A stretch of DNA of 64,000 bases from positions 1 to 64,000 of the forward strand of contig NZ_ATUT01000002.1 of assembly GCF_000420345.1 (NCBI RefSeq), read 5' to 3'. This document shows, piece after piece, positions 3,514-43,796 of the stretch. Every line of letters begins with the position of its first letter. Within the stretch, counting starts at the first letter, position 1. Below the pieces are notes generated by a model. The model saw only the letters and a list, made by a program, of their open reading frames with translations. It did no database searches and was not told the origin of the DNA. The position numbers and the translations under genes are program-made. Source of the stretch: Faecalicoccus pleomorphus DSM 20574. Its GTDB lineage: Bacteria; Bacillota_I; Bacilli_A; Erysipelotrichales; Erysipelotrichaceae.

Positions 3514-5613
3514 ATGCGAATGGAACGAGACTACGAGGCATATTTTGACGACTATAATTGTTTGAAAGTCTATATGTCAAAAAACTTTTTTAACGGATCT
3601 TCCCGTATTTTTCATTTAAAGGATTCCTGTGATCGTATCATTCATTTAAATATTGATCATAAACAGGATCTTTTAAACGGTTATACCAAATATGTATTGT
3701 CCTTAAAAGAACCGCTGATCATGGGAGAAGAATATGTCGTTTATGATGAACATTGTCAAAAAACGATCTGTCAGTATTCTCATATCGTCAAAACGATTCG
3801 ATTTAATCAGGAATATGAAGTAAAAGATATTGATCTTGGCTGTTTTTACACAAAGGAGTGTACTGTATTTCGTTTATGGTCCCCGGTAGCTTATCAAATT
3901 TTGTTGCGACTGGATGATCATGGACAAAAATCAACGATTGAAATGGAGCGTAAAGAAAAAGGAATTTTTGAGACAACAGTATCTAAAGACCTTTTAAATG
4001 CACATTATACATTTATGGTGCGAGCTAACGGAACTTGGAAAGAAACGGTGGATCCGTACAATTCTTTCTGTGGTCCCAATACGCAATATAGTGTTGTGCA
4101 ATCCATTGAAAATGTAAAGCTCCCTAAAAAGGTGAAAGTACCTTTGATGCGATCGAATACAGATGCGATTATTTATGAAGCCAGTATTCGTGATATGACA
4201 TCCGAACCAGGTATCGGGGTGAAGCATCCACGCAAATTTAAAGGCTTTACCGAGGAAAACATCACAACAAAGTCCATGAGTACAGGCTTTAGCTATATTC
4301 AATCTTTGGGAGTAAGCCACATTCAGCTTTTGCCGGTGTTTGATTTTGGCAGTGTGGATGAGGTCTATACAGATATCTTTTACAATTGGGGCTATGATCC
4401 GGTCCATCACCGGGCCCTGGAAGGCAGTTATTCGACCGATTGCACCGATGCGACCAAACGAATTGAAGAGCTGGCTCATTTAGTACAGGATTGTCATCAG
4501 GCGGGCTTGAAGGTGAATCTGGATTTGGTCTTTAATCACGTATATACCAAAGAAAAGTACCCGTTGGAAATTCTGGTTCCCAACTATTATTTTTTGATGG
4601 ATACGGAAGGAGAGTTCAGTAACGGCTCTTTCTGTGGAAATGATATTGATACGCAACCACCGATGTCACGCAAATATTTTGTAGATACATGTCTTCGTAT
4701 CGTAGAGTGGTTTGATGTGGATGGTTTTCGTTTTGATTTGATGGGAATTTTGGATTATAACTTAATGAATGAAATTGCCGAGAAGTGTAGGGCACTGAAG
4801 CCGGATTTTATGATCTATGGAGAAGGTTGGAATATGCCTAGCTTTGTGCCGGAACATCTAAGAGCTTCGATGTTGAATCAGGAACATATGCCATTGATTG
4901 GTCATTTCAGTGATCGTTTTCGGGAAACATGTCGCGGTTCCAATGGAGATTTGGAAATTTGTGGTTATTCCAATGGCGATACCGGGTTATTGAATTCTAT
5001 GCAACAATGTTTGGGTGGCGGTTGCCTGGATCATCTTTTTGATTCGCCGCAAAAAGCTATCAATTATGTGGAGTGCCATGACAACCATACGCTGTGGGAT
5101 AAAAACAGTGTGTGTTGTCAACATGAGTCCAGAGGGGTCTTGATGCAGCGACAAACCTTGGCCAATGCTTTGGTGATCTTAGCACAGGGAATTCCTTTCC
5201 TTCATGCCGGTCAGGAATTTGGCTGCACAAAGTATAATTTAGGAAACAGCTACAATCGCAGCGACCACTATAATCATATCGACTACAACCTGCGCAATAA
5301 GCATATGCCGATCGTAGTGGATACCAAGCTGTTGATCAAAATTCGTAAAGAGCATCCATGTTTTCGCCTGGCTACAAAAGAAGAGATCGAAGCCAATGTT
5401 AGCTTTGGTGATATCGATGGAAAAGTATTGGTCTATCAGGCAAAGTGTAAAGAGGATGTCTGTCTTTGTTTCTTTAATCCGACTTCGGAACATTTTACAT
5501 ACGATTCGCATCAAAAGCTGTCGATTTTATTTGATAATGGAAATATCAATGCGGCCACGACTTATCGGGTAGGGATCGCTCCGTATTGTGTTGTCGTTTG
5601 TACATTGAGTTAA
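3514..5613 (+). CDS. pulA: pullulanase, type I (GH13 debranching enzyme), cytoplasmic
   Basis: A 699-aa glycoside hydrolase cleaving alpha-1,6 branch points in glycogen, pullulan or branched maltodextrins. An N-terminal beta-sandwich (CBM48-like) leads to the GH13 barrel with the pullulanase hallmark YNWGYDP and the four conserved regions: NLDLVFNHV, DGFRFDLMG (nucleophile Asp), YGEGWNM (acid/base Glu) and VECHDNHTLWD. There is no signal peptide, so it should act on intracellular glycogen or imported maltodextrins, like B. subtilis AmyX. Start chosen for the AGGAAGAGAT Shine-Dalgarno. It appears monocistronic. Confidence 0.92.
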   Translation: MRMERDYEAYFDDYNCLKVYMSKNFFNGSSRIFHLKDSCDRIIHLNIDHKQDLLNGYTKYVLSLKEPLIMGEEYVVYDEHCQKTICQYSHIVKTIRFNQEYEVKDIDLGCFYTKECTVFRLWSPVAYQILLRLDDHGQKSTIEMERKEKGIFETTVSKDLLNAHYTFMVRANGTWKETVDPYNSFCGPNTQYSVVQSIENVKLPKKVKVPLMRSNTDAIIYEASIRDMTSEPGIGVKHPRKFKGFTEENITTKSMSTGFSYIQSLGVSHIQLLPVFDFGSVDEVYTDIFYNWGYDPVHHRALEGSYSTDCTDATKRIEELAHLVQDCHQAGLKVNLDLVFNHVYTKEKYPLEILVPNYYFLMDTEGEFSNGSFCGNDIDTQPPMSRKYFVDTCLRIVEWFDVDGFRFDLMGILDYNLMNEIAEKCRALKPDFMIYGEGWNMPSFVPEHLRASMLNQEHMPLIGHFSDRFRETCRGSNGDLEICGYSNGDTGLLNSMQQCLGGGCLDHLFDSPQKAINYVECHDNHTLWDKNSVCCQHESRGVLMQRQTLANALVILAQGIPFLHAGQEFGCTKYNLGNSYNRSDHYNHIDYNLRNKHMPIVVDTKLLIKIRKEHPCFRLATKEEIEANVSFGDIDGKVLVYQAKCKEDVCLCFFNPTSEHFTYDSHQKLSILFDNGNINAATTYRVGIAPYCVVVCTLS

Positions 5614-5624
5614 GACGAATTCAC

Positions 5625-5653
5625 TTGACTTGTTCATCATCAAAACATAAAAT
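5625..5653 (+). promoter_or_regulatory. sigma-A promoter for guaB
   Basis: TTGACT (5625-5630), a 17-nt spacer and TAAAAT (5648-5653), 37 bases upstream of the guaB start. I saw no guanine riboswitch in the short leader. Confidence 0.75.
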
Positions 5654-5689
5654 AGTTTCAATAATGCGTAAAGACAAGAGGAGGAAACC

Positions 5690-7201
5690 ATGGCAAAGTT
5701 TTGTAAAGAACCATCCAGAACATTTAGTGAGTATTTATTGATTCCCGGTTATACCGATGAAAACTGTACACCGGATAACGTGAATCTTCGTACGCCGTTA
5801 GTTAAGTTTAAAAAAGGAGAAGAACCGGCACTTCATTTAAATATTCCTATGGTATCAGCCATCATGCAGGCCGTCAGCGGTGAAGAAATGGCTTGTGCCT
5901 TAGCACGTGAAGGGGGCGTTAGTTTCATCTATGGTTCCCAGTCGATTGAATCACAGGCGGCAATGGTTGCCAAGGTCAAGGCAACAAAATCCGGTTTTAC
6001 CGGCAGTGATTCCAATATTTCCCCGGAAGCTACTTTAAAAGATGTGATCGAATTAAAGAAGAAAACAGGCCACTCCACTATGGCAGTGACGGAAAATGGC
6101 GAAGCGGACGGTAAATTGGTCGGCATCGTAACCAGCCGTGATTATCGTGTCAGTCGTATGGACCTAGATACAAAAGTCAAAGAATTCATGACACCGTTTG
6201 ATAAGCTGATCGTAGGGAAGGAAGACATTACCTTAAGTGAGGCCAATGATTTGATCTGGGATCATAAATTGAATCAGCTTCCGGTCGTTGATGACAAGCA
6301 GCGCTTAAAAGCTTTTGTCTTTCGCAAGGACTATGCATCGCATAAAGAAAATCCCAATGAATTGTTAGATGACCAAAAACGCTATATCGTAGGGGCCGGT
6401 ATCAATACCCGTGACTATCAGGAACGTGTTCCGGCTCTGGTAAAGGCAGGGGTCGATGTACTTTGTATTGATTCCAGTGAAGGATATTCCTGCTGGCAGG
6501 CAAAGACATTACAGTGGATCCGCGATACTTATGGTGATCGTGTTAAAGTCGGTGCCGGAAATGTTGTCGATGAAGAGGGATTCCGCTTTTTGGCCGAAGC
6601 CGGAGCGGACTTTATCAAAGTCGGTATCGGTGGAGGTTCCATCTGTATTACCCGCGAACAAAAAGGGATCGGGCGTGGACAGGCCACGGCAACTTTAGAA
6701 GTTGCACAGGCCCGTGACAAATACTTTGAAGAAACCGGTGTGTATATTCCAATTTGCTCTGATGGTGGTATCGTACACGATTATCACATTACGTTGGCTT
6801 TAGCCTTCGGTGCGGATTTTGTGATGTTGGGACGTTATTTTGCACGCTTTAAGGAAGCACCGAATAATTTGGTCAGTGTCAATGGAAACTATATGAAAGA
6901 ATATTGGGGCGAAGGAAGTGCCCGTGCCAGAAACTGGCAGCGCTATGATGTCGGCGGAGAAGGCAAGATGAGCTTTGTCGAAGGAGTTGACTCCTATGTG
7001 CCTTATGCGGGAACACTTCATGAAAATGTCGGTTTGACCCTTTCTAAAGTCTCTCATACGATGTGTAACTGTGGATGTCTGACGATTCCTGACTTGCAGA
7101 AGAATGCCAAAGTGACTTTGGTTTCCAGCACAAGTATCGTTGAAGGCGGTGCACATGACGTTGTGGTACGTGATGAAAGTTTTGATGCCAAACCACAGTA
7201 A
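5690..7201 (+). CDS. guaB: IMP dehydrogenase
   Basis: A 503-aa enzyme that oxidises IMP to XMP with NAD, the committed step of guanine nucleotide synthesis. The barrel is interrupted by a pair of CBS domains (roughly residues 105-225), as usual. The catalytic loop reads [19 protein letters not shown] and includes the active-site Cys. Later blocks ([12 protein letters not shown], then the [14 protein letters not shown] segment) match the family. Strong GAGGAGG ribosome binding site. It has its own promoter and terminator, so it is monocistronic. Confidence 0.95.
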
Positions 7202-7204
7202 TAT

Positions 7205-7227
7205 AAGGGCGTAAAACCCTTTTTTTG
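7205..7227 (+). terminator. terminator downstream of guaB
   Basis: Short stem AAGGG/CCCTT with a 7-nt loop followed by seven T residues, directly after the guaB stop codon. Confidence 0.7.
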
Positions 7228-7234
7228 TTGTCGG

Positions 7235-7263
7235 TTGCACTTTCAAAAAGACTCTGTTATAGT
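7235..7263 (+). promoter_or_regulatory. promoter predicting a leaderless mRNA
   Basis: TTGCAC (7235-7240), 17-nt spacer, TATAGT (7258-7263). The expected transcription start, about 7 nt past the -10, falls on the ATG at 7270. There is no Shine-Dalgarno before this ATG, so translation is probably leaderless. Confidence 0.6.
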
Positions 7264-7269
7264 GTGACC

Positions 7270-8412
7270 ATGAATAGAGATTTTCAAAATAGTTCGGATT
7301 TATTGTTGGATATCAGCATCTTATATAGAAGTACACAAAAGTATTATGATCAAATGCTTCAAAGCATTTCATTGACCTATGCACAGCTCCCGATCTTGAT
7401 TCTGATTTATGAAAATGAAGGCATTTCTCAGCAGCAGATTGCCCAGGATGGCGGCTATGACAAGGGGACGATTACCAAGCAGGTACAGAAGCTGGAGGAA
7501 ATGGGATATATTCGGGTACAGCCATCTAAAAAGGATAAACGGGCCAAAGAACTTTATACAACGGCTAAAGCAAGAGGTATCATGAGCAAGGTCTATGCGA
7601 TCCGTACTTCCTGGTGGCGGCATATCAGTTCTTCCATTCCTAAAGAAGATATGGCAGCTTTCTCCAACTTTTATAAAAATATGGCGGCTTCCGCCAAGGA
7701 ATTTGCGAAAGCCGATTTAAATGCGATTTCTTTTTTTGAACATCAGAAGCTTAGCTTTCAAAGCGTTCCGGGCAAGGTTTCAACCATTGTCGCCACAGGG
7801 GGCTGTAACTATCGCTGCCCTTTTTGTAATGAATCACATCTGGTTTTTTTAAAAGAGGATTCCATCAGCTATTCTCAGGAAGAAATCTTACAATACGTAA
7901 AGAGTCGAAAGGATATGCTGGATTCGATAACAATCACCGGTGGAGAACCTTTGATGCATACAGAGCTTGATCCTTTTTTAAAAAAAGTAAAACAGATGGG
8001 ATTTTTCATCAATTTGATGACCAATGGTTCGTATTTTGAACATTTAAAAAGCCTGGTTGAACAAAAATTAGTGGATCGAGTTGTCATGCATATTAAAAAT
8101 GTTCCGGGAAAATATGGGGAAACGATTGGATTGAAAACATATGAGATTCATGAAGTTGAAAAATCGATACGTCTTTTAAATACAGAAAAGATAGAAAGCG
8201 TATTTGTGATTACACCGGTGCATGAGTTTCATACACCAGAGGATCTGGTTGCTATGGCCAAATGGCTACAGCCGGCGCCTAGCTTGGAACTGCATATTTT
8301 TGAAGAGAAAGAAACGGTCATTCAAAAAGGATATCATGGTTATACCCGAGAAGAATTGAATAAGATAAAAAAAGAGTTGGAAGTCTATATACCTAATGTA
8401 AAGATACGATAG
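7270..8412 (+). CDS. MarR-type regulator fused to a radical SAM activating enzyme (NrdG-like)
   Basis: A 380-aa two-domain protein. Residues about 1-140 form a MarR winged helix (TYAQLPILILIYENEG, then QQIAQDGGYDKGTITKQV and the wing). From about residue 165 a radical SAM domain begins, with the cluster motif CNYRCPFC, then TITGGEPLMH. The cluster region resembles anaerobic ribonucleotide reductase activases of the NrdG2 type (ATGGCNYRCPFCN). It lies 10 bases upstream of a NrdD-like gene, so the inferred role is to install the glycyl radical on that protein, and perhaps to regulate the operon. Start at 7270 is preferred because the promoter -10 ends at 7263; a TTG at 7225 lies upstream of the promoter. 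Confidence 0.8.
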   Translation: MNRDFQNSSDLLLDISILYRSTQKYYDQMLQSISLTYAQLPILILIYENEGISQQQIAQDGGYDKGTITKQVQKLEEMGYIRVQPSKKDKRAKELYTTAKARGIMSKVYAIRTSWWRHISSSIPKEDMAAFSNFYKNMAASAKEFAKADLNAISFFEHQKLSFQSVPGKVSTIVATGGCNYRCPFCNESHLVFLKEDSISYSQEEILQYVKSRKDMLDSITITGGEPLMHTELDPFLKKVKQMGFFINLMTNGSYFEHLKSLVEQKLVDRVVMHIKNVPGKYGETIGLKTYEIHEVEKSIRLLNTEKIESVFVITPVHEFHTPEDLVAMAKWLQPAPSLELHIFEEKETVIQKGYHGYTREELNKIKKELEVYIPNVKIR

Positions 8413-8422
8413 GAGGGGTTGT

Positions 8423-10450
8423 ATGCTGAAGGTGGAAAAAAGAGATGGAACCATCGTAGATTTTGCGATCGCCAAGATCGTAAATGCGATTCAAAAAGCG
8501 TTTGATTCCTGCAAGATGGCTTATGACCCACAAATCTTTGATCTGCTGGTATTACGTGTCAGCGCGGATGTACAACCAAAGATCAAAAACGATATCGTCT
8601 CTGTTGAAGACATACAGGACAGTGTGGAACGTGTGCTTTCTCAGGCCGGTTATACAGAGGTGGCCAAAGCATATATCTTGTATCGTAAACAAAGAGAGAA
8701 CATTCGTCGCATCGAAAATACGACGTTGGATTATAAGAATATTGTAGATGCCTATCTGGATGATGTGGAACAAGAACAGCTTCTGGATCAGCCTTCATTA
8801 TATTCTGTTGGTGGTTTGATACTATCCAATTCCGGTGCCATCACCAGAAATTACTGGTTGAGTGAAGTCTATGATGCCACGATCAAGGAAGCGCATAACA
8901 GCGGCTTGATCCATATTCATGATCTGGATATGTTGACAGGGGATAGTGCCAGCTGGTCTTTGTTGACGTTGATTAGACAGGGTATCACCGGTATGCCAGG
9001 TCAGGTACATTCTAAAGCGCCAAAGCATTTGATGACCTTATGTAATCAGATGGTCAATGTTTTAGGCATCCTGCAAAATGAATGGGCTGGTGCGCAAAGC
9101 TTTTCAAGCTTTGATACGTACCTGGCTCCTTATGTGAAAAAAGAAAAGCTTTCACTTTCCGATGTGAAGAAAGCTCTGGAGGCTTTTATATACGGTGTGA
9201 ATATCCCTTCACGCTGGGGAACGAAAACGCCATTTAGTAACGTGCTTTTTGATATGCAGGTACCGCAGGCTTTAAAGGATACCAAAGCCTGGGTAGGTAA
9301 CAAACAGATGGATTTTACCTATGGACAATGCCAAAAGGAAATGCATATCATTCAGGAAGCTTTCTTTTCGATTCTACTGGAGGGGGATGCCAAACAAAAT
9401 GGTTTTCCTTTTCCAATCGTGACAGTCTTGCTGGATAAAAACTTTGATTTTGAAGAGAAAAGCTACACAAATCTCTTTCTATGTGCCGGTAAGTACGGTA
9501 TGCCATACTTTGTAAACGCATCGATGGTTCAAAGGGATCCCTATCGACCACTGAATCCAAAACATTGGAACTACAAGCCGGGCTTTTACAGCTATCCGGA
9601 AAACTCAGGAAGCATCGGTACCGTTACGATCAATCTTGTAAGGCTGGCGTGGCTGGCAGAGGATGAAACTGGTTTTTTCCGATCATTAGATGAAGTGTTA
9701 GCTTTATCTTGTCGTTCTTTACAGATCAAACGCCAAGTTTTGACAAAGCTGTTTCGCAGTGGCTTGTATCCTTATACAGCCTGTTACATCGATAGCTTTG
9801 AACATCATTTTTCCACGATTGGAATCGTAGGTATGAATGAAGCCGGTATCAATGCCAAATGGCTTCAAAAAGATATGGGGCATAAGAGCACGCAGGAATT
9901 TGCCCGTAAAGTTTTATCGCATATACGAGATGTTTTGATGAAGCAGCAGGAAAGTACGCATTGTCTATATAATCTGGAAGCTACACCGGCAGAAAGCGTA
10001 TCGTATCGCTTTGCGAAAAAAGATCAAGATCTTTATCCTGATATGAAAACAGCCGGTATTGTATCTTATACCAATTCGAGCCAGATGCCTTTGGAAAATG
10101 AGGAAGATCTTTTTTCTTCTTTACAGATTCAGGAAACGATTCAGTCTCTGTATAACGGTGGAGTTTCTTTTTCCATACCGATGGCTAAAGGCATGGAAGA
10201 TACGACAGCTGTTAAAACGCTGGTACAAAGTATCATCAAACATTTTTCTATCTATGATTTTATGTTGTCGCCGGTGTACTCGATATGTCCGGATCACGGC
10301 TATATCTCCGGCTTAGTCAAACAATGCCCGCAATGTGAGAAAGAATGTACGGTGTGGGCACGTATGGCAGGGTATTATCATCCCGTTAATTTTCAAAATG
10401 AAAAGGTCCGACAGGATTTTATCCGCCAACATCCTTATATTTTAGAATGA
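8423..10450 (+). CDS. NrdD-like anaerobic ribonucleotide reductase homologue lacking the conserved active-site cysteines
   Basis: A 675-aa glycyl radical protein. An N-terminal ATP-cone (residues about 1-93) is followed by clear NrdD sequence, including LQNEWAGAQSFSSFDTYLAP and NIPSRWGTKTPFSN, and a C-terminal zinc site (CPDHGY, then CPQCEKEC) with glycyl radical motif ARMAGYYHPV. Two features are odd. Where NrdD normally has YCxGWxL, this protein reads GDSASWSL (about residues 173-180). The MCCRL segment that normally lies between PYF-N and GSIGVVTINL is replaced by a cysteine-free stretch with PLNPKHWNYKPG (about 357-396). Canonical NrdD needs these cysteines for thiyl chemistry. It may be a divergent RNR, a regulatory paralogue or another enzyme. 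Ribosome binding site AGGAGGGG. Confidence 0.8.
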   Translation: MLKVEKRDGTIVDFAIAKIVNAIQKAFDSCKMAYDPQIFDLLVLRVSADVQPKIKNDIVSVEDIQDSVERVLSQAGYTEVAKAYILYRKQRENIRRIENTTLDYKNIVDAYLDDVEQEQLLDQPSLYSVGGLILSNSGAITRNYWLSEVYDATIKEAHNSGLIHIHDLDMLTGDSASWSLLTLIRQGITGMPGQVHSKAPKHLMTLCNQMVNVLGILQNEWAGAQSFSSFDTYLAPYVKKEKLSLSDVKKALEAFIYGVNIPSRWGTKTPFSNVLFDMQVPQALKDTKAWVGNKQMDFTYGQCQKEMHIIQEAFFSILLEGDAKQNGFPFPIVTVLLDKNFDFEEKSYTNLFLCAGKYGMPYFVNASMVQRDPYRPLNPKHWNYKPGFYSYPENSGSIGTVTINLVRLAWLAEDETGFFRSLDEVLALSCRSLQIKRQVLTKLFRSGLYPYTACYIDSFEHHFSTIGIVGMNEAGINAKWLQKDMGHKSTQEFARKVLSHIRDVLMKQQESTHCLYNLEATPAESVSYRFAKKDQDLYPDMKTAGIVSYTNSSQMPLENEEDLFSSLQIQETIQSLYNGGVSFSIPMAKGMEDTTAVKTLVQSIIKHFSIYDFMLSPVYSICPDHGYISGLVKQCPQCEKECTVWARMAGYYHPVNFQNEKVRQDFIRQHPYILE

Positions 10451-10499
10451 GATGCGAATGAGCACCTCTTCTTTTTTGCCAATGAGAAGGAGGAAAACA

Positions 10500-12233
10500 A
10501 TGAAATTGATCATCAATTATTTAAAACCCTATAAATTTCTGGTGTTGTTGAATATTGTATCCATCTTTGGGTTTGCACTGGCTGAATTGGGTATTCCAAC
10601 ATTGATTTCCGATATGATCGATGAAGGCGTGCTGCGCCAGGATAGCCAGTATTTGTTTCGAACGGGTCTGATCATTGCGTGCATTGCCTTGATCGGTGTA
10701 TGTGGAACGATCCTGTTGGGATATTGTTGTGCCAAGATTTCCACATCAGTGACTCGAGATATTCGAAACGATGTATTTAAAAAGGTACAGACTTTTTCAC
10801 ATGCCCAGATGAATGAGTTTGGCGTATCGTCTTTGATCACCAGAACGAATAATGATGCGTATCAAATTATGGTCTTTTTAAATGTGATCCTGCGAACGGC
10901 TTTACTTACACCGGTGATGTTTTTTGTCAGCTTTACATTGACGATTCAATCCAATCTGCAGCTTTCCATGATCATTGCCTCTACGATTCCTTTGATCATA
11001 TTAGGCGTTATTCTGGTCGGTCGTTTTTCGGAGCCCATCAGTGAAAAACAACAAGGTTCACTGGATAGACTCAACCGCATCTTTCGTGAAAATCTGACCG
11101 GTATCCGTGTAATTCGTGCTTTTAATAACGATGCTTACGAATCCAAACGATTCGATGAAGAAAATCGCTTTTTCATGAATCAGTCTCGAAAGTTATTTAA
11201 GCTGATGTCCAGTACGGAACCCATGTTTTTCTTTGTGATGAATTTGGCCGCTTTGGCGATCTATTATGTAGCGGCCGGCATGATCGATGCCAATACCTTA
11301 CAAGTCGGTAAATTGATTGCCTTTATGGAATATCTGTTTCATGCGATGTTGTCGGTCATGTTGTTTTGTACCGTTTTTATGATGTATCCAAGAGCCAGTG
11401 TATCTGCTAGACGAATTCGTGCCATCTTTGATTCACGATCCGAGATTACAGAACAAAACGATGCCATAGATTTAGAACATGTAGATTCCCTGGAATTCGA
11501 TCACGTGACCTTTGCCTATCCGGATGGGGAAGAAGCGGTTTTAAAAGATATTAGCTTTAGTGTCAAAAAAGGGGAGACGATTGCCTTTATCGGTTCGACC
11601 GGTTCAGGAAAAAGTACATTGATCTCTCTGGTACCCCGTTTTTATGATGTGAGTCAGGGAAGTATTCGTATTAATGGCAGGGATATTCGATCGTATAAAA
11701 TCGATTCGCTTCGTGCCTGTATCGGTTATGTTGCCCAAAAAGCCGTCTTATTTCGAGGAAGTATAGAAGAAAATATTCGCTTCGGCAATGCACATGCGAG
11801 TCAACAAGAGATCGAAAAAGCAGCGCATGTCGCACAGGCTTATGACTTTATCATGGAAAAACCGGAACAGTTTCAAGAAAGGATCGTAGAAGGGGCCACC
11901 AATGTATCCGGGGGACAGAAACAGCGTCTTTCAATTGCCCGTGCCCTTGTCAGACATCCACAGATCTGCATTTATGATGATTCTTTTTCTGCCCTGGATT
12001 TTGCGACCGATGCCAAGCTTCGTAAAGCCTTAAAGCCGGAGATCAAAGACTCCATCATGATGATCGTCGCCCAACGAGTTTCTACGATCATGAATGCCGA
12101 TCATATCCTTGTACTGGATGAGGGAAAGACCGTAGGCTATGGAACGCATACAGCATTGTTGAAAAATTGTCCGGTGTATAAGGAAATAGCCTTATCGCAG
12201 TTAAGTGAGGAGGAACTGACTTATGGAAAATAG
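10500..12233 (+). CDS. ABC exporter half-transporter with degenerate ATPase site (subunit 1)
   Basis: 577 aa: an N-terminal six-helix exporter domain followed by a nucleotide-binding domain from about residue 330. Walker A is GSTGSGKST and the signature is NVSGGQKQRLS, both good. Walker B reads CIYDDSFSALD, with Asp where the catalytic Glu should be, and the H-loop is IVAQRVST, with Gln for His. This is the pattern of the degenerate-site partner in heterodimeric exporters (TM287, BmrC type). The ATG at 10500 is chosen for its AAGGAGG; an upstream ATG has none. It overlaps the next gene by 11 bases. Substrate unknown. Confidence 0.9.
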   Translation: MKLIINYLKPYKFLVLLNIVSIFGFALAELGIPTLISDMIDEGVLRQDSQYLFRTGLIIACIALIGVCGTILLGYCCAKISTSVTRDIRNDVFKKVQTFSHAQMNEFGVSSLITRTNNDAYQIMVFLNVILRTALLTPVMFFVSFTLTIQSNLQLSMIIASTIPLIILGVILVGRFSEPISEKQQGSLDRLNRIFRENLTGIRVIRAFNNDAYESKRFDEENRFFMNQSRKLFKLMSSTEPMFFFVMNLAALAIYYVAAGMIDANTLQVGKLIAFMEYLFHAMLSVMLFCTVFMMYPRASVSARRIRAIFDSRSEITEQNDAIDLEHVDSLEFDHVTFAYPDGEEAVLKDISFSVKKGETIAFIGSTGSGKSTLISLVPRFYDVSQGSIRINGRDIRSYKIDSLRACIGYVAQKAVLFRGSIEENIRFGNAHASQQEIEKAAHVAQAYDFIMEKPEQFQERIVEGATNVSGGQKQRLSIARALVRHPQICIYDDSFSALDFATDAKLRKALKPEIKDSIMMIVAQRVSTIMNADHILVLDEGKTVGYGTHTALLKNCPVYKEIALSQLSEEELTYGK

Positions 12234-14010
12234 AACCATCAAGACAAAAGATTGTCTAAAAGCTCTTCTTCATTTTATGAAACCCTATCGTTTTAAATTG
12301 AGTATTGCGATCTTGATGATCGTTTTGACACAGTTATCCTTTGCGTTAAATCCGACAGTAGAAGGGATGATCACAACCTCTTTGATGCAGGATGCGATGG
12401 ATATCATTCAAGGAGTGCCCGGTGCCCATGTGCATTTTGAAACCATTTTAGGCATTATGCTGCTTTTATTGGGATTATATGTGATCAAGACAGTTTCCCA
12501 ACTCATCACAGCTTTTTTCTTAACCGATGCGATTCAAATGACGATGCACGATGTACGAAATGCGTTACAAAAAAAGATCCAGCGACTGCCGGTACGCTAT
12601 TTTGACGATCATGCCTTTGGAGATATATTAAGTCGTGTGACTAATGATGTCGATGCCTTAAGCAATGCGCTTCAACAAGCATTGACCAGAGTATTCGGTG
12701 CCGTTTTGACATTTATTTTCGTAATTACGATGATGTTGATGATCAATCCGGTCATGACTGCCATTGCCTTATTGATCATTCCACTTTCATTGATCATTAC
12801 AAAAGTCGTTGTCTCTCATTCGCAAAAGCTCTTTGAAAAACAACAAAATACATTAGGGGAGCTGAATGGAACGATCACTGAAATGTATGGAGGATTTAAT
12901 GAAATCATTCTCTATGGGAAACAACAGGATGCCATTCAGATATTTCAGGATGTCAATGATAAGATGTGTAAAGCAAGCTTCAAGGCCCAGTTTGTTTCCA
13001 GTCTGATTTCTCCATTAGTATCCTTATGTACGTATTTAGCCATTGGAGCTGTTGCGGTATTTGGCTGTGTACTGGTTATTGAACAAAAACTGCAGGTAGG
13101 AAACTTACAGGCTTTTATCCGCTATATCTGGCAGATCAATGATCCACTTTCGCAGATTTCCCAATTATCTTCACAGGTACAATCGGCTTTTGCGGGTATG
13201 CATCGAATTTTCGGTATGTTGGCAGAAGAGGAAGAACCACTAGAAAAAACAGAAGTAAAAGAAGTCGATACCATGAAAGGGGATGTGAAATTTGAACATG
13301 TCCAGTTTGGTTATGATGAAGACTTATTGATGAAGGATGTCAATATCGATGTCAAAGCCGGACAGATGGTTGCGATCGTCGGTCCTACCGGTGCCGGAAA
13401 GACAACACTCATGAATCTGTTGTTGCGGTTTTATGATGTGAAAGGCGGAAGCATAAAGATTGACGGGGTAGATATACGCGATTTTAAACGAGAAGATCTA
13501 AGATCTTTATTTTCGCTGGTCTTGCAGGATACATGGCTTTTCCATGGAACGATCTATGACAACATTCGCTATGGTCGTTTAAGCGCACGTAAGGATGAAG
13601 TCATCGAAGCCGCCAAAATGGCCAATGTTCATCATTTTATCCGTACCTTGTCGCATGGCTATGATACGGAGCTAAATGAAGAAGCCAATAATATCTCACA
13701 GGGAGAAAAGCAGCTTTTAACGATTGCCAGAGCCATCTTAAAGGATCCCCAAATCTTGATTTTAGATGAAGCCACCAGTTCCGTGGATACGCGCCTGGAA
13801 AAGATGTTACAGTCGGCTATGCAAAGAGTGATGAAAAATCGAACCAGCTTTGTCATTGCCCATCGCTTATCGACCATCAAAAATGCTGATTTGATCCTTG
13901 TCTTACAACATGGTGATATCGTAGAACAAGGAACCCATGAAAGTCTGTTAGAAAAACAAGGCATCTATGAAAAGCTATATCATTCACAGTTTGCCCAACA
14001 GGAAGAGTAG
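12223..14010 (+). CDS. ABC exporter half-transporter with catalytic Glu (subunit 2)
   Basis: 595 aa, the partner of the preceding gene: membrane domain then nucleotide-binding domain. Walker A GPTGAGKTT, Walker B ILILDEATSSVD with catalytic Glu, and switch IAHRLST are canonical, while the signature is NISQGEKQLL instead of LSGGQ. Combined with the first subunit this gives one consensus and one degenerate ATP site, as known for heterodimeric multidrug-type exporters. Translationally coupled through overlap. It ends at a terminator. The transported compound cannot be told from sequence. Confidence 0.9.
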   Translation: MENRTIKTKDCLKALLHFMKPYRFKLSIAILMIVLTQLSFALNPTVEGMITTSLMQDAMDIIQGVPGAHVHFETILGIMLLLLGLYVIKTVSQLITAFFLTDAIQMTMHDVRNALQKKIQRLPVRYFDDHAFGDILSRVTNDVDALSNALQQALTRVFGAVLTFIFVITMMLMINPVMTAIALLIIPLSLIITKVVVSHSQKLFEKQQNTLGELNGTITEMYGGFNEIILYGKQQDAIQIFQDVNDKMCKASFKAQFVSSLISPLVSLCTYLAIGAVAVFGCVLVIEQKLQVGNLQAFIRYIWQINDPLSQISQLSSQVQSAFAGMHRIFGMLAEEEEPLEKTEVKEVDTMKGDVKFEHVQFGYDEDLLMKDVNIDVKAGQMVAIVGPTGAGKTTLMNLLLRFYDVKGGSIKIDGVDIRDFKREDLRSLFSLVLQDTWLFHGTIYDNIRYGRLSARKDEVIEAAKMANVHHFIRTLSHGYDTELNEEANNISQGEKQLLTIARAILKDPQILILDEATSSVDTRLEKMLQSAMQRVMKNRTSFVIAHRLSTIKNADLILVLQHGDIVEQGTHESLLEKQGIYEKLYHSQFAQQEE

Positions 14011-42552: not shown

Positions 42553-43796
42553 AACACGTACATACTATTGTGATTGGTGGAGGCCCGGCAGGGCTTGCTG
42601 CTGCGATCAGTGCTCATAAACAAGGTGTCAGTGTCCTTTTGATTGAAAGAGAATCTAAGTTGGGAGGTATCTTAAAACAATGTATTCATGATGGGTTTGG
42701 TCTGGATCGTTTTAAGGAACGTTTAACAGGTCCGGAATATGCGAAGCGATTCATCGATGAATTGGATGCCTTATCCATTGATGTTCTTTTATCGACAACC
42801 GTGCTTCATATTGCCAAAGAAAAGGAAGGCTATTGTCTGGATGTGGTCAATGCCGATGGTGTTGCGCGCTATAGCTGCAAAAGTCTTGTACTTTCTACCG
42901 GCTGCCGTGAAAGAACAAGTCGTCAGGTCTTCATTCACGGACAGCGGCCATCGGGGGTTTATACAGCCGGCAGCGCACAATATTTTATGAATATTCTAGG
43001 TATGTTGCCAACTAGGCGATGTGTAATTTTAGGAAGTGGTGATATCGGACTGATCATGGCCAGGCGGTTGAGTCTGGAAGGTGCCCAGGTATTGGGAGTC
43101 TATGAAGCAAAGCCGACTCCCAGCGGTTTGACAAGAAACTTGCTGCAATGTCTGGAAGATTACAATATTCCATTGCATCTTTCTCATACTGTGATAAAAG
43201 TGTACGGAGATTCCAGATTGGAAGGTGTTGAAATTTCAAAGGTGGATGAAAACATGCATCCGATTCCGGGAACGTCTTTTCGTGTCGATTGTGATGCCTT
43301 GATTCTTTCTGTTGGATTGATTCCGGAAAATGAATTGGCAGAATCGTTATCGATTTCTTTGGATCCAAAAACCAAAGGCCCTTTTGTAAATCAATACTTC
43401 ATGACAGAAAAAGAAGGTTGTTTTATTTGTGGGAATGCACTGCATGTCAATGATCTGGTGGATCATGTCTCGTATTGTGCCACAAAAGCCGGTGCTTATG
43501 CAGCACAGTATGAAAATAAAAAACATTATGATCAGCCGGTTCAGGTAGAGGGGAATTTTGGATACTTCATTCCGCAAAGGATTCGTTATCCTTTAGGAGA
43601 GGATCCGATTGCTTGTTATTTTAGAGTGAATCGGGAAATGAAAAAGGCAAAGTTTTCTTTGATTGTGAATGATCAAATAATCTATACCAAGGTATTCCAT
43701 CATGTAAAACCACCGGAAATGGAATTTTTAGAGTTGAAACAAGATCTTTTTAAAGGAGCTAAAACGATTTCTGTAAAAATGGAGGAGTTACTATGA
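42549..43796 (+). CDS. FAD-dependent pyridine nucleotide-disulphide oxidoreductase family protein
   Basis: 415 aa. FAD-binding TIVIGGGPAGLAAAIS at the N-terminus, a second Rossmann fold (CVILGSGDIGLIMARRLS) for NAD(P)H, and CFICGNALHVNDLVD near the C-terminus. In many Firmicutes this protein lies between a GlpA-like dehydrogenase and DUF1667 and presumably passes electrons from the dehydrogenase onward. It starts with TTG within the stop codon overlap of the preceding gene, behind GGAGG at the correct distance. Confidence 0.87.
   Translation: MKHVHTIVIGGGPAGLAAAISAHKQGVSVLLIERESKLGGILKQCIHDGFGLDRFKERLTGPEYAKRFIDELDALSIDVLLSTTVLHIAKEKEGYCLDVVNADGVARYSCKSLVLSTGCRERTSRQVFIHGQRPSGVYTAGSAQYFMNILGMLPTRRCVILGSGDIGLIMARRLSLEGAQVLGVYEAKPTPSGLTRNLLQCLEDYNIPLHLSHTVIKVYGDSRLEGVEISKVDENMHPIPGTSFRVDCDALILSVGLIPENELAESLSISLDPKTKGPFVNQYFMTEKEGCFICGNALHVNDLVDHVSYCATKAGAYAAQYENKKHYDQPVQVEGNFGYFIPQRIRYPLGEDPIACYFRVNREMKKAKFSLIVNDQIIYTKVFHHVKPPEMEFLELKQDLFKGAKTISVKMEELL

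Follow-up and report, generated by a model that had tools for sequence, protein, structure and literature searches.

What does a class III ribonucleotide reductase do once its catalytic cysteines are gone? The question is raised by a gene of Faecalicoccus pleomorphus DSM 20574, found in a stretch of 64,000 nucleotides which we call the window (contig NZ_ATUT01000002.1, positions 1 to 64,000). A preliminary description, made from the sequence alone, had argued that the loss of two cysteines opposes ordinary ribonucleotide reduction and favours either a paralogue with a regulatory role or some new activity. Our results support this argument, and they favour the regulatory branch: judging from comparative sequence analysis, this protein and the activase encoded upstream of it probably form a nucleotide-sensing transcriptional regulator of the working nrdD-nrdG operon. 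The branch of a new catalytic activity is weakened because several relatives under selection have lost the Fe-S motif of the activase or the whole glycyl-radical tail.

The degenerate NrdD and its lost catalytic parts

The protein, which we call the degenerate NrdD, has the following features:

8423..10450, + strand: degenerate class III ribonucleotide reductase, 675 aa, exact ORF bounds (Pfam, NCBIfam, alignment, model)
8423..8707, + strand: ATP-cone domain, residues 1-95, the best-kept part (retention of invariant positions in dead copies)
8942..8947, + strand: Asp174-Ser175 replacing the Tyr-Cys of working enzymes, N-strand cysteine lost (alignment, cysteine counts)
9518..9607, + strand: rewritten finger-loop region without cysteines, residues 366-395, replacing SMCCRLRLD (alignment)
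10286..10378, + strand: zinc site (C622, H625, C635, C638) and glycyl-radical loop (Gly650), kept (sequence, alignment)

The family profiles of class III reductases, NF006126 and PF13597, both score above their cut-offs. For NF006126, the NCBIfam profile of PRK08270 ribonucleoside triphosphate reductases, the score is 762 bits (cut-off 548). Pfam places an ATP-cone at residues 3-92 and the NRDD domain (PF13597) at residues 128-662. The AlphaFold2 model (pLDDT 81.7) has the class III NrdD 4u3e as its top structural match (Z 36.3, rmsd 3.1, 520 residues), and 8p2s, also a class III NrdD, gives a Z of 33.4. The ATP-cone, the C-terminal zinc site (Cys-x2-His and Cys-x2-Cys) and the glycyl-radical motif (ARMAGYYHPV, with Gly650) are all kept, as had been described.

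The catalytic positions are different. We have aligned the protein with about 20 working relatives from the same order. It has GDSASW where they have GYCAGW, which agrees with the earlier reading of this site: The N-strand cysteine is found in 51/51 working relatives and in only 2/17 members of the degenerate lineage. Ahead of GSIG(T/V)VTINL, a shorter stretch without cysteines replaces DVRSMCCRLRLD. There is no SMCCRL, and the thiyl-radical cysteine of the finger loop is missing. The preliminary description was right about this replacement, but the text which follows is GSIGTVTINL, not GSIGVVTINL. Residues 371-390 of the finger loop are modelled with low confidence (pLDDT 56-59).

A third loss had been overlooked. 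Working relatives have a glutaredoxin/thioredoxin domain (PF00462) at the C-terminus, likely their reductant, which brings their length to about 790-840 aa. The degenerate NrdD lacks this domain and ends shortly past the glycyl-radical loop. The whole pattern is common to three other species of the genus, with about 70% identity, which excludes an artefact of sequencing. We propose, from these alignments, that the protein no longer reduces ribonucleotides.

The genome, of 1.99 Mb in 47 contigs and 99.9% complete, contains a separate, intact classic pair on contig C5, one of the checks suggested at the outset: an nrdD with all its motifs (HNCCLVN, CMGCRSF, RRTCGY) and its own nrdG. A class I/II reductase large subunit is found on contig C14. 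The degenerate NrdD comes from a subtype other than that of classic NrdD, with which it has only about 25-30% identity.

The fusion gene and the dead copies of Erysipelotrichales

The gene directly upstream, also overlooked in the preliminary description, codes for a fusion protein:

7205..7221, + strand: terminator-like hairpin in the interval between guaB and the fusion gene (sequence scan)
7270..8412, + strand: MarR-NrdG fusion, 380 aa, N-terminal MarR winged helix and C-terminal NrdG2-type radical SAM activase (Pfam, TIGR02495, model)
7804..7827, + strand: radical-SAM motif CxxxCxxC (CNYRCPFC), intact in the window copy (alignment)

The winged-helix domain belongs to the MarR family: It is above the Pfam cut-off (E about 1e-14) and has the matching fold. 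The activase half is detected by Pfam as Radical_SAM (2e-22), it passes the cut-off of TIGR02495 (NrdG2), and the window copy has both the CxxxCxxC and GGE motifs. The model has a pLDDT of 93.7, and its Foldseek matches are pyruvate formate-lyase activase and MarR/SlyA. The start is likely the ATG at 7270, whereas the listed ORF opens at the TTG at 7225.

In order to find the same loss elsewhere, 316 genomes of the order Erysipelotrichales were surveyed; a copy was considered dead when its finger loop was gone. Working PRK08270 NrdDs are common in the order. We have collected 30 dead loci, a repeated loss which the preliminary description had proposed to look for. They fall in three groups: A comprises 17 loci from several genera, that of the window among them, and most of these have guaB directly upstream; B comprises 8 loci from a single genus; and T comprises 5 loci whose products are about 500-570 aa long and have no glycyl tail. 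The MarR-NrdG fusion is directly upstream in 30/30 of them, while working copies are paired with either the fusion or a plain NrdG. Four genomes contain both types (G307, with loci L070 and L088, and G097, G107 and G128, with L081-L083 and L120-L122); in all four, the working copy is found with the plain NrdG and the dead copy with the fusion. Among the loci inspected, the fusion is confined to this order, and its named examples are Erysipelotrichaceae MAGs. A scan of genome contigs found working copies only, and the names again put the fusion in Erysipelotrichaceae.

Two working-type variants were also observed. In G233, a working-type NrdD seems to be divided on contig C28 (L127, L128): A piece of 508 aa with SMCCRL and another of 449 aa with the glycyl tail lie about 70 kb from each other, which may correspond to a rearrangement, an insertion or an assembly error. 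L078 and L079 (in G303 and G256) are PRK08270 NrdDs which have the catalytic cysteines and a plain NrdG, without the C-terminal extension.

As to the neighbourhood, most group A genera have the same two genes in synteny 5' of the dead copy: a pullulanase-like gene and guaB, coding for IMP dehydrogenase (window 3514-7201). We have rejected guaB as a functional partner: The terminator-like hairpin lies in between and group B loci have no guaB, so synteny is the simpler reading. Two ABC transporter half-genes (window 10452-14010) lie directly 3' of the pair in the genus (G001, G002). They are not found there in the other group A genera inspected, and therefore seem unrelated. A link with anti-phage defence was also rejected, as only viperin matches were found, via the radical SAM fold. 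In most group A loci the fusion has no clear Shine-Dalgarno sequence, and a possible -10 box is found a few bases upstream of its start (window 7258-7272), which suggests leaderless transcripts.

The loss of catalysis arose several times. In the MarR-NrdG tree the dead copies require about five changes, and a single clade containing all of them is rejected (p-AU 3e-25). The dead copy of G036, for example, is sister to the working copy of G042, with a support of 100/99. Dead copies do cluster in the NrdD tree, with strong long-branch warnings. We have rejected the single origin which this would indicate, and consider the cluster as long-branch attraction because long branches meet in it and the MarR-NrdG tree contradicts it.

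The dead copies are under purifying selection. Sister pairs of them, the truncated type included, have dN/dS values of 0.04-0.16 (working pairs, 0.02-0.10), so the degenerate NrdD is not a pseudogene. Some dS values are saturated, and the unsaturated pairs L071/L072, L082/L083 and L110/L111 agree, with 0.05-0.13. The dN/dS of the ATP-cone is below that of the rest of the protein in 8/9 dead pairs and equal in the ninth. We have also calculated how many of the invariant positions are kept by the dead copies (for NrdD, those invariant in 51 working relatives):

ATP-cone (31 positions): 97% in A, 96% in B, 96% in T
Barrel: 47-74% in A, 65-78% in B, 21-43% in T
Zinc site and glycyl tail: 62% in A, 54% in B, 3% in T (tail and linker of A and B within 54-67%)
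MarR domain (21 positions, including the recognition segment DKGT): 93, 94 and 98% in the three dead groups
Radical SAM part: 63, 86 and 66% in the three dead groups

Both activase motifs are intact in the window copy. Among the relatives, G016, G079 and G271/272 have a broken CxxxCxxC, and the GGE which binds SAM is disrupted in G307, G224/225 and G025. Selection keeps the ATP-cone and the MarR domain while the barrel, the glycyl tail and the [4Fe-4S] motif of the activase decay.

A palindrome at the fusion gene and at the classic nrdD

By footprinting upstream of the MarR-NrdG genes we have detected a palindrome, TAGTTGNNNNNNCAACTA, a predicted operator. At least 11 of its 12 fixed bases are found 5' of the fusion in 20/28 working loci (0.015 expected) and in 8/30 dead loci (0.01 expected), the expectation being obtained by first-order Markov resampling. 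A whole-genome search for exact sites gave the following: Where a dead copy and a classic nrdD occur in one genome, the exact palindrome lies 16-70 bp 5' of the classic gene, in 25/25 cases. The distances, in bp, are the following:

G000 29, G001 28, G002 28, G003 28, G004 27, G014 41
G016 55, G024 16, G025 51, G033 28, G036 66, G079 25
G090 27, G092 20, G097 30, G126 19, G142 40, G145 41
G224 47, G225 41, G228 29, G229 70, G232 17, G307 27
G154 (the 25th genome): a short way 5' of nrdD, by direct reading

On the other hand, the exact palindrome was found at this place in 0/24 genomes of the order which have a classic nrdD and lack the fusion, several of them with chance sites elsewhere (Fisher p 1.6e-14, with independence overstated since the genomes are related). 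In G271 an exact site is found ahead of a 760-aa NrdD. Where the fusion is accompanied by a classic nrdD and by a local NrdD which still works, the exact site is present at nrdD in 3/7 genomes, and a fourth has a 10/12 site. Altogether, 42/54 exact sites in fusion-bearing genomes lie 5' of nrdD or of the fusion gene. Exact sites in or near unrelated genes (G225 C10, G024 C34) were taken as chance, and a search of the genus allowing up to 2 mismatches was uninformative, with fewer matches than a control pattern.

The sites of the host genome are these:

C5:6550-6567: TAGTTGAACGTTCAACTA, the only exact site in the genome, 29 bp 5' of nrdD and just ahead of its ribosome-binding site
7232..7249, + strand: CGGTTGCACTTTCAAAAA, a weakened operator-like site (8/12) which overlaps a possible -35 box (sequence)

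The possible fusion promoter consists of TTGCAC (7235-7240, -35) and TATAGT (7258-7263), and it was not listed in a consensus promoter scan of the window. The operator of this operon is weak, so autoregulation is doubtful here; the corresponding site of G003, from the same genus, is TGGTTGCACTTTCAACTG, with 10/12. At 43227-43239 of the window, GTTGAAATTTCAA matches the operator core and its flanks do not fit, probably by chance.

A further site is found about 150 bp upstream of pflB, which codes for pyruvate formate-lyase, another glycyl radical enzyme. It is an 11/12 operator-like site present in G000 (L247:2023-2040, which is C20:11322-11339), G003 (L263) and G014 (L272), the last from a different genus. 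It is absent from G001, G002 and others. This may mean that the regulatory signal is not nucleotides alone.

The proposed regulator, its rivals and known systems

On the reading which we prefer, the pair at 7270-10450 would be a transcription regulator of two proteins, which have an anaerobic ribonucleotide reductase and its activase as their ancestors. MarR-NrdG would provide the DNA-binding part, with its NrdG half docked on the degenerate NrdD; we infer that it physically binds both the palindrome and this protein. The conserved ATP-cone would most likely read the dATP/ATP balance. The complex would bind TAGTTGNNNNNNCAACTA just 5' of the intact nrdD-nrdG operon and most likely repress it at high dATP, although this direction is a guess, and the glycyl radical may or may not still be installed and read. 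NrdG activates NrdD via the glycyl radical domain. It has been shown for P. copri NrdD that this domain is loosened by dATP bound at the ATP-cone and ordered by ATP (PMC11226230), so a MarR-tagged NrdG could sense dATP through its contact with the degenerate NrdD. The truncated copies (G033, G036, G271) have no glycyl domain, and another contact must therefore serve there.

Such a regulator may have evolved in three steps: A working reductase operon came under its own MarR-tagged activase, the operator then spread to a second nrdD, and finally the local NrdD lost catalysis. Intermediates are still alive in the form of working copies which share the MarR fusion and the operator, and there are several independent endpoints.

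The radical-SAM and glycyl motifs of the window copy would be unneeded in a pure nucleotide sensor, and their integrity counts against one. We may tentatively suggest, as a possibility well short of probable, a dual sensor which has arisen repeatedly in Erysipelotrichales: The ATP-cone would read dATP/ATP, the Fe-S cluster of the activase or the glycyl radical would read anaerobiosis, and the pair would control nrdDG and, in some species, pflB. If this is true, it would be a transcription regulator with a protein radical or its activase as signal, and a control of ribonucleotide reduction independent of NrdR.

The same intact motifs (activase motif, GGEP, Gly650 loop and zinc site), together with a barrel in which roughly 50 to 75% of the invariant residues are kept, could also mean that the protein is a glycyl radical enzyme which catalyses a new reaction, MarR merely regulating the operon and nrdD. 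We consider this unlikely. Known glycyl radical enzymes use a finger-loop cysteine, which is missing here, and the conservation of the rewritten loop is uneven. Within the same clade, some relatives have lost the Fe-S cysteines of the activase (G016, G079) or GGE (G307, G224, G025), others the glycyl tail, and these decayed relatives are still under selection, with their ATP-cone kept.

It is quite unlikely that MarR-NrdG is the regulator by itself, sensing redox state, SAM or its Fe-S cluster, with the degenerate NrdD as a dispensable passenger. A MarR domain would bind DNA on its own, and the pflB site of G000, G003 and G014 suggests anaerobiosis as the signal rather than nucleotides; against this, purifying selection on the degenerate NrdD is about as strong as on MarR-NrdG, and the ATP-cone is nearly frozen in every lineage, even where the Fe-S motif is gone. 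Control of the working NrdD at the protein level, by heterodimers or competition for NrdG, is very unlikely. NrdD enzymes are dimers, the model keeps the fold and a working nrdD is present in the same genome, but mixed dimers are unlikely between subtypes with about 25-30% identity, and the invariable MarR fusion and the palindrome at nrdD would be left unexplained.

Ribonucleotide reduction by another cysteine or reductant route is extremely improbable. It could be argued from T. maritima NrdD, whose crystals show no pre-positioned radical cysteine (PMC4493059), and from C303, which is conserved in most dead copies. Nevertheless, T. maritima retains an SCCR motif where the degenerate NrdD has no cysteine, and the N-strand cysteine and the glutaredoxin domain are also lost. 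C303, the only cysteine outside the zinc site held across the whole degenerate lineage, lies at neither catalytic position and is shared with 51/51 working enzymes, which rules it out as a replacement. The earlier description had considered that another conserved active-site cysteine might exist; cysteine counts against 51 working relatives found none substituting in the dead copies. Finally, a redundant reductase decaying on its way to loss, as the working nrdD and the several truncated versions might suggest, can be practically discarded given dN/dS values of 0.04-0.16, intact frames in about 30 genomes and the same outcome reached repeatedly with domain-selective conservation.

The preferred reading is a regulator made of known parts. 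The degenerate NrdD resembles the PRK08270-type NrdD with its NrdG2 in sequence family, ATP-cone, fold, zinc site, glycyl loop and adjacent NrdG2; it differs in having lost the finger loop, the N-strand cysteine and the fused glutaredoxin, and its activase is fused to MarR. We should note that the PRK08270 "equivalog" annotation labels dead copies as reductases. Catalytically dead reductase homologues with another role are known in the herpesvirus M45/UL45 R1 proteins, which have likewise lost catalysis and gained a new role. Nevertheless, these are viral class I R1 homologues acting on host signalling, with no known role in transcription, unlike the one proposed here. T. maritima NrdD also has an unusual radical-cysteine loop for a class III enzyme (PMC4493059), but its cysteine is present, although displaced, and it is still studied as a reductase, while the region here is free of cysteines. 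MarR-family repressors (MarR, SlyA, MexR) share the winged-helix fold with the fusion, whose predicted operator, a palindromic GTTG-N6-CAAC site near its own gene, is also reminiscent of them. These repressors have a small-molecule pocket in the MarR dimer, whereas the effector part of the fusion is a radical SAM activase plus a second protein.

The control of ribonucleotide reduction sets the DNA precursor pool, and bacteria are thought to rely on NrdR for it. NrdR has been described as universal in bacteria (PMC12051234). With TIGR00244 we have detected no NrdR above the cut-off in 60 relatives and no match in the host genome, while 9/14 control genomes score; the degenerate NrdD itself does not match this profile, which covers the zinc-ribbon and ATP-cone of NrdR. 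The pair may take the place of NrdR. In open-licence papers we have found no description of a MarR-NrdG fusion, a dead NrdD regulator or a reductase pseudoenzyme acting as a regulator. A dead reductase sensing for a live one, if true, would clearly exemplify how an enzyme can turn into a gene regulator.

The likeness to NrdR is in the proposed role, a nucleotide-sensing ATP-cone which controls the transcription of reductase genes. The construction is different: NrdR is a small zinc-ribbon/ATP-cone protein which acts on paired NrdR boxes, while here the ATP-cone is on a dead reductase, and DNA binding is predicted for the MarR domain on the activase, at a different palindrome. In summary, every part belongs to a family already known, and the role proposed for the pair is similar to that of NrdR.
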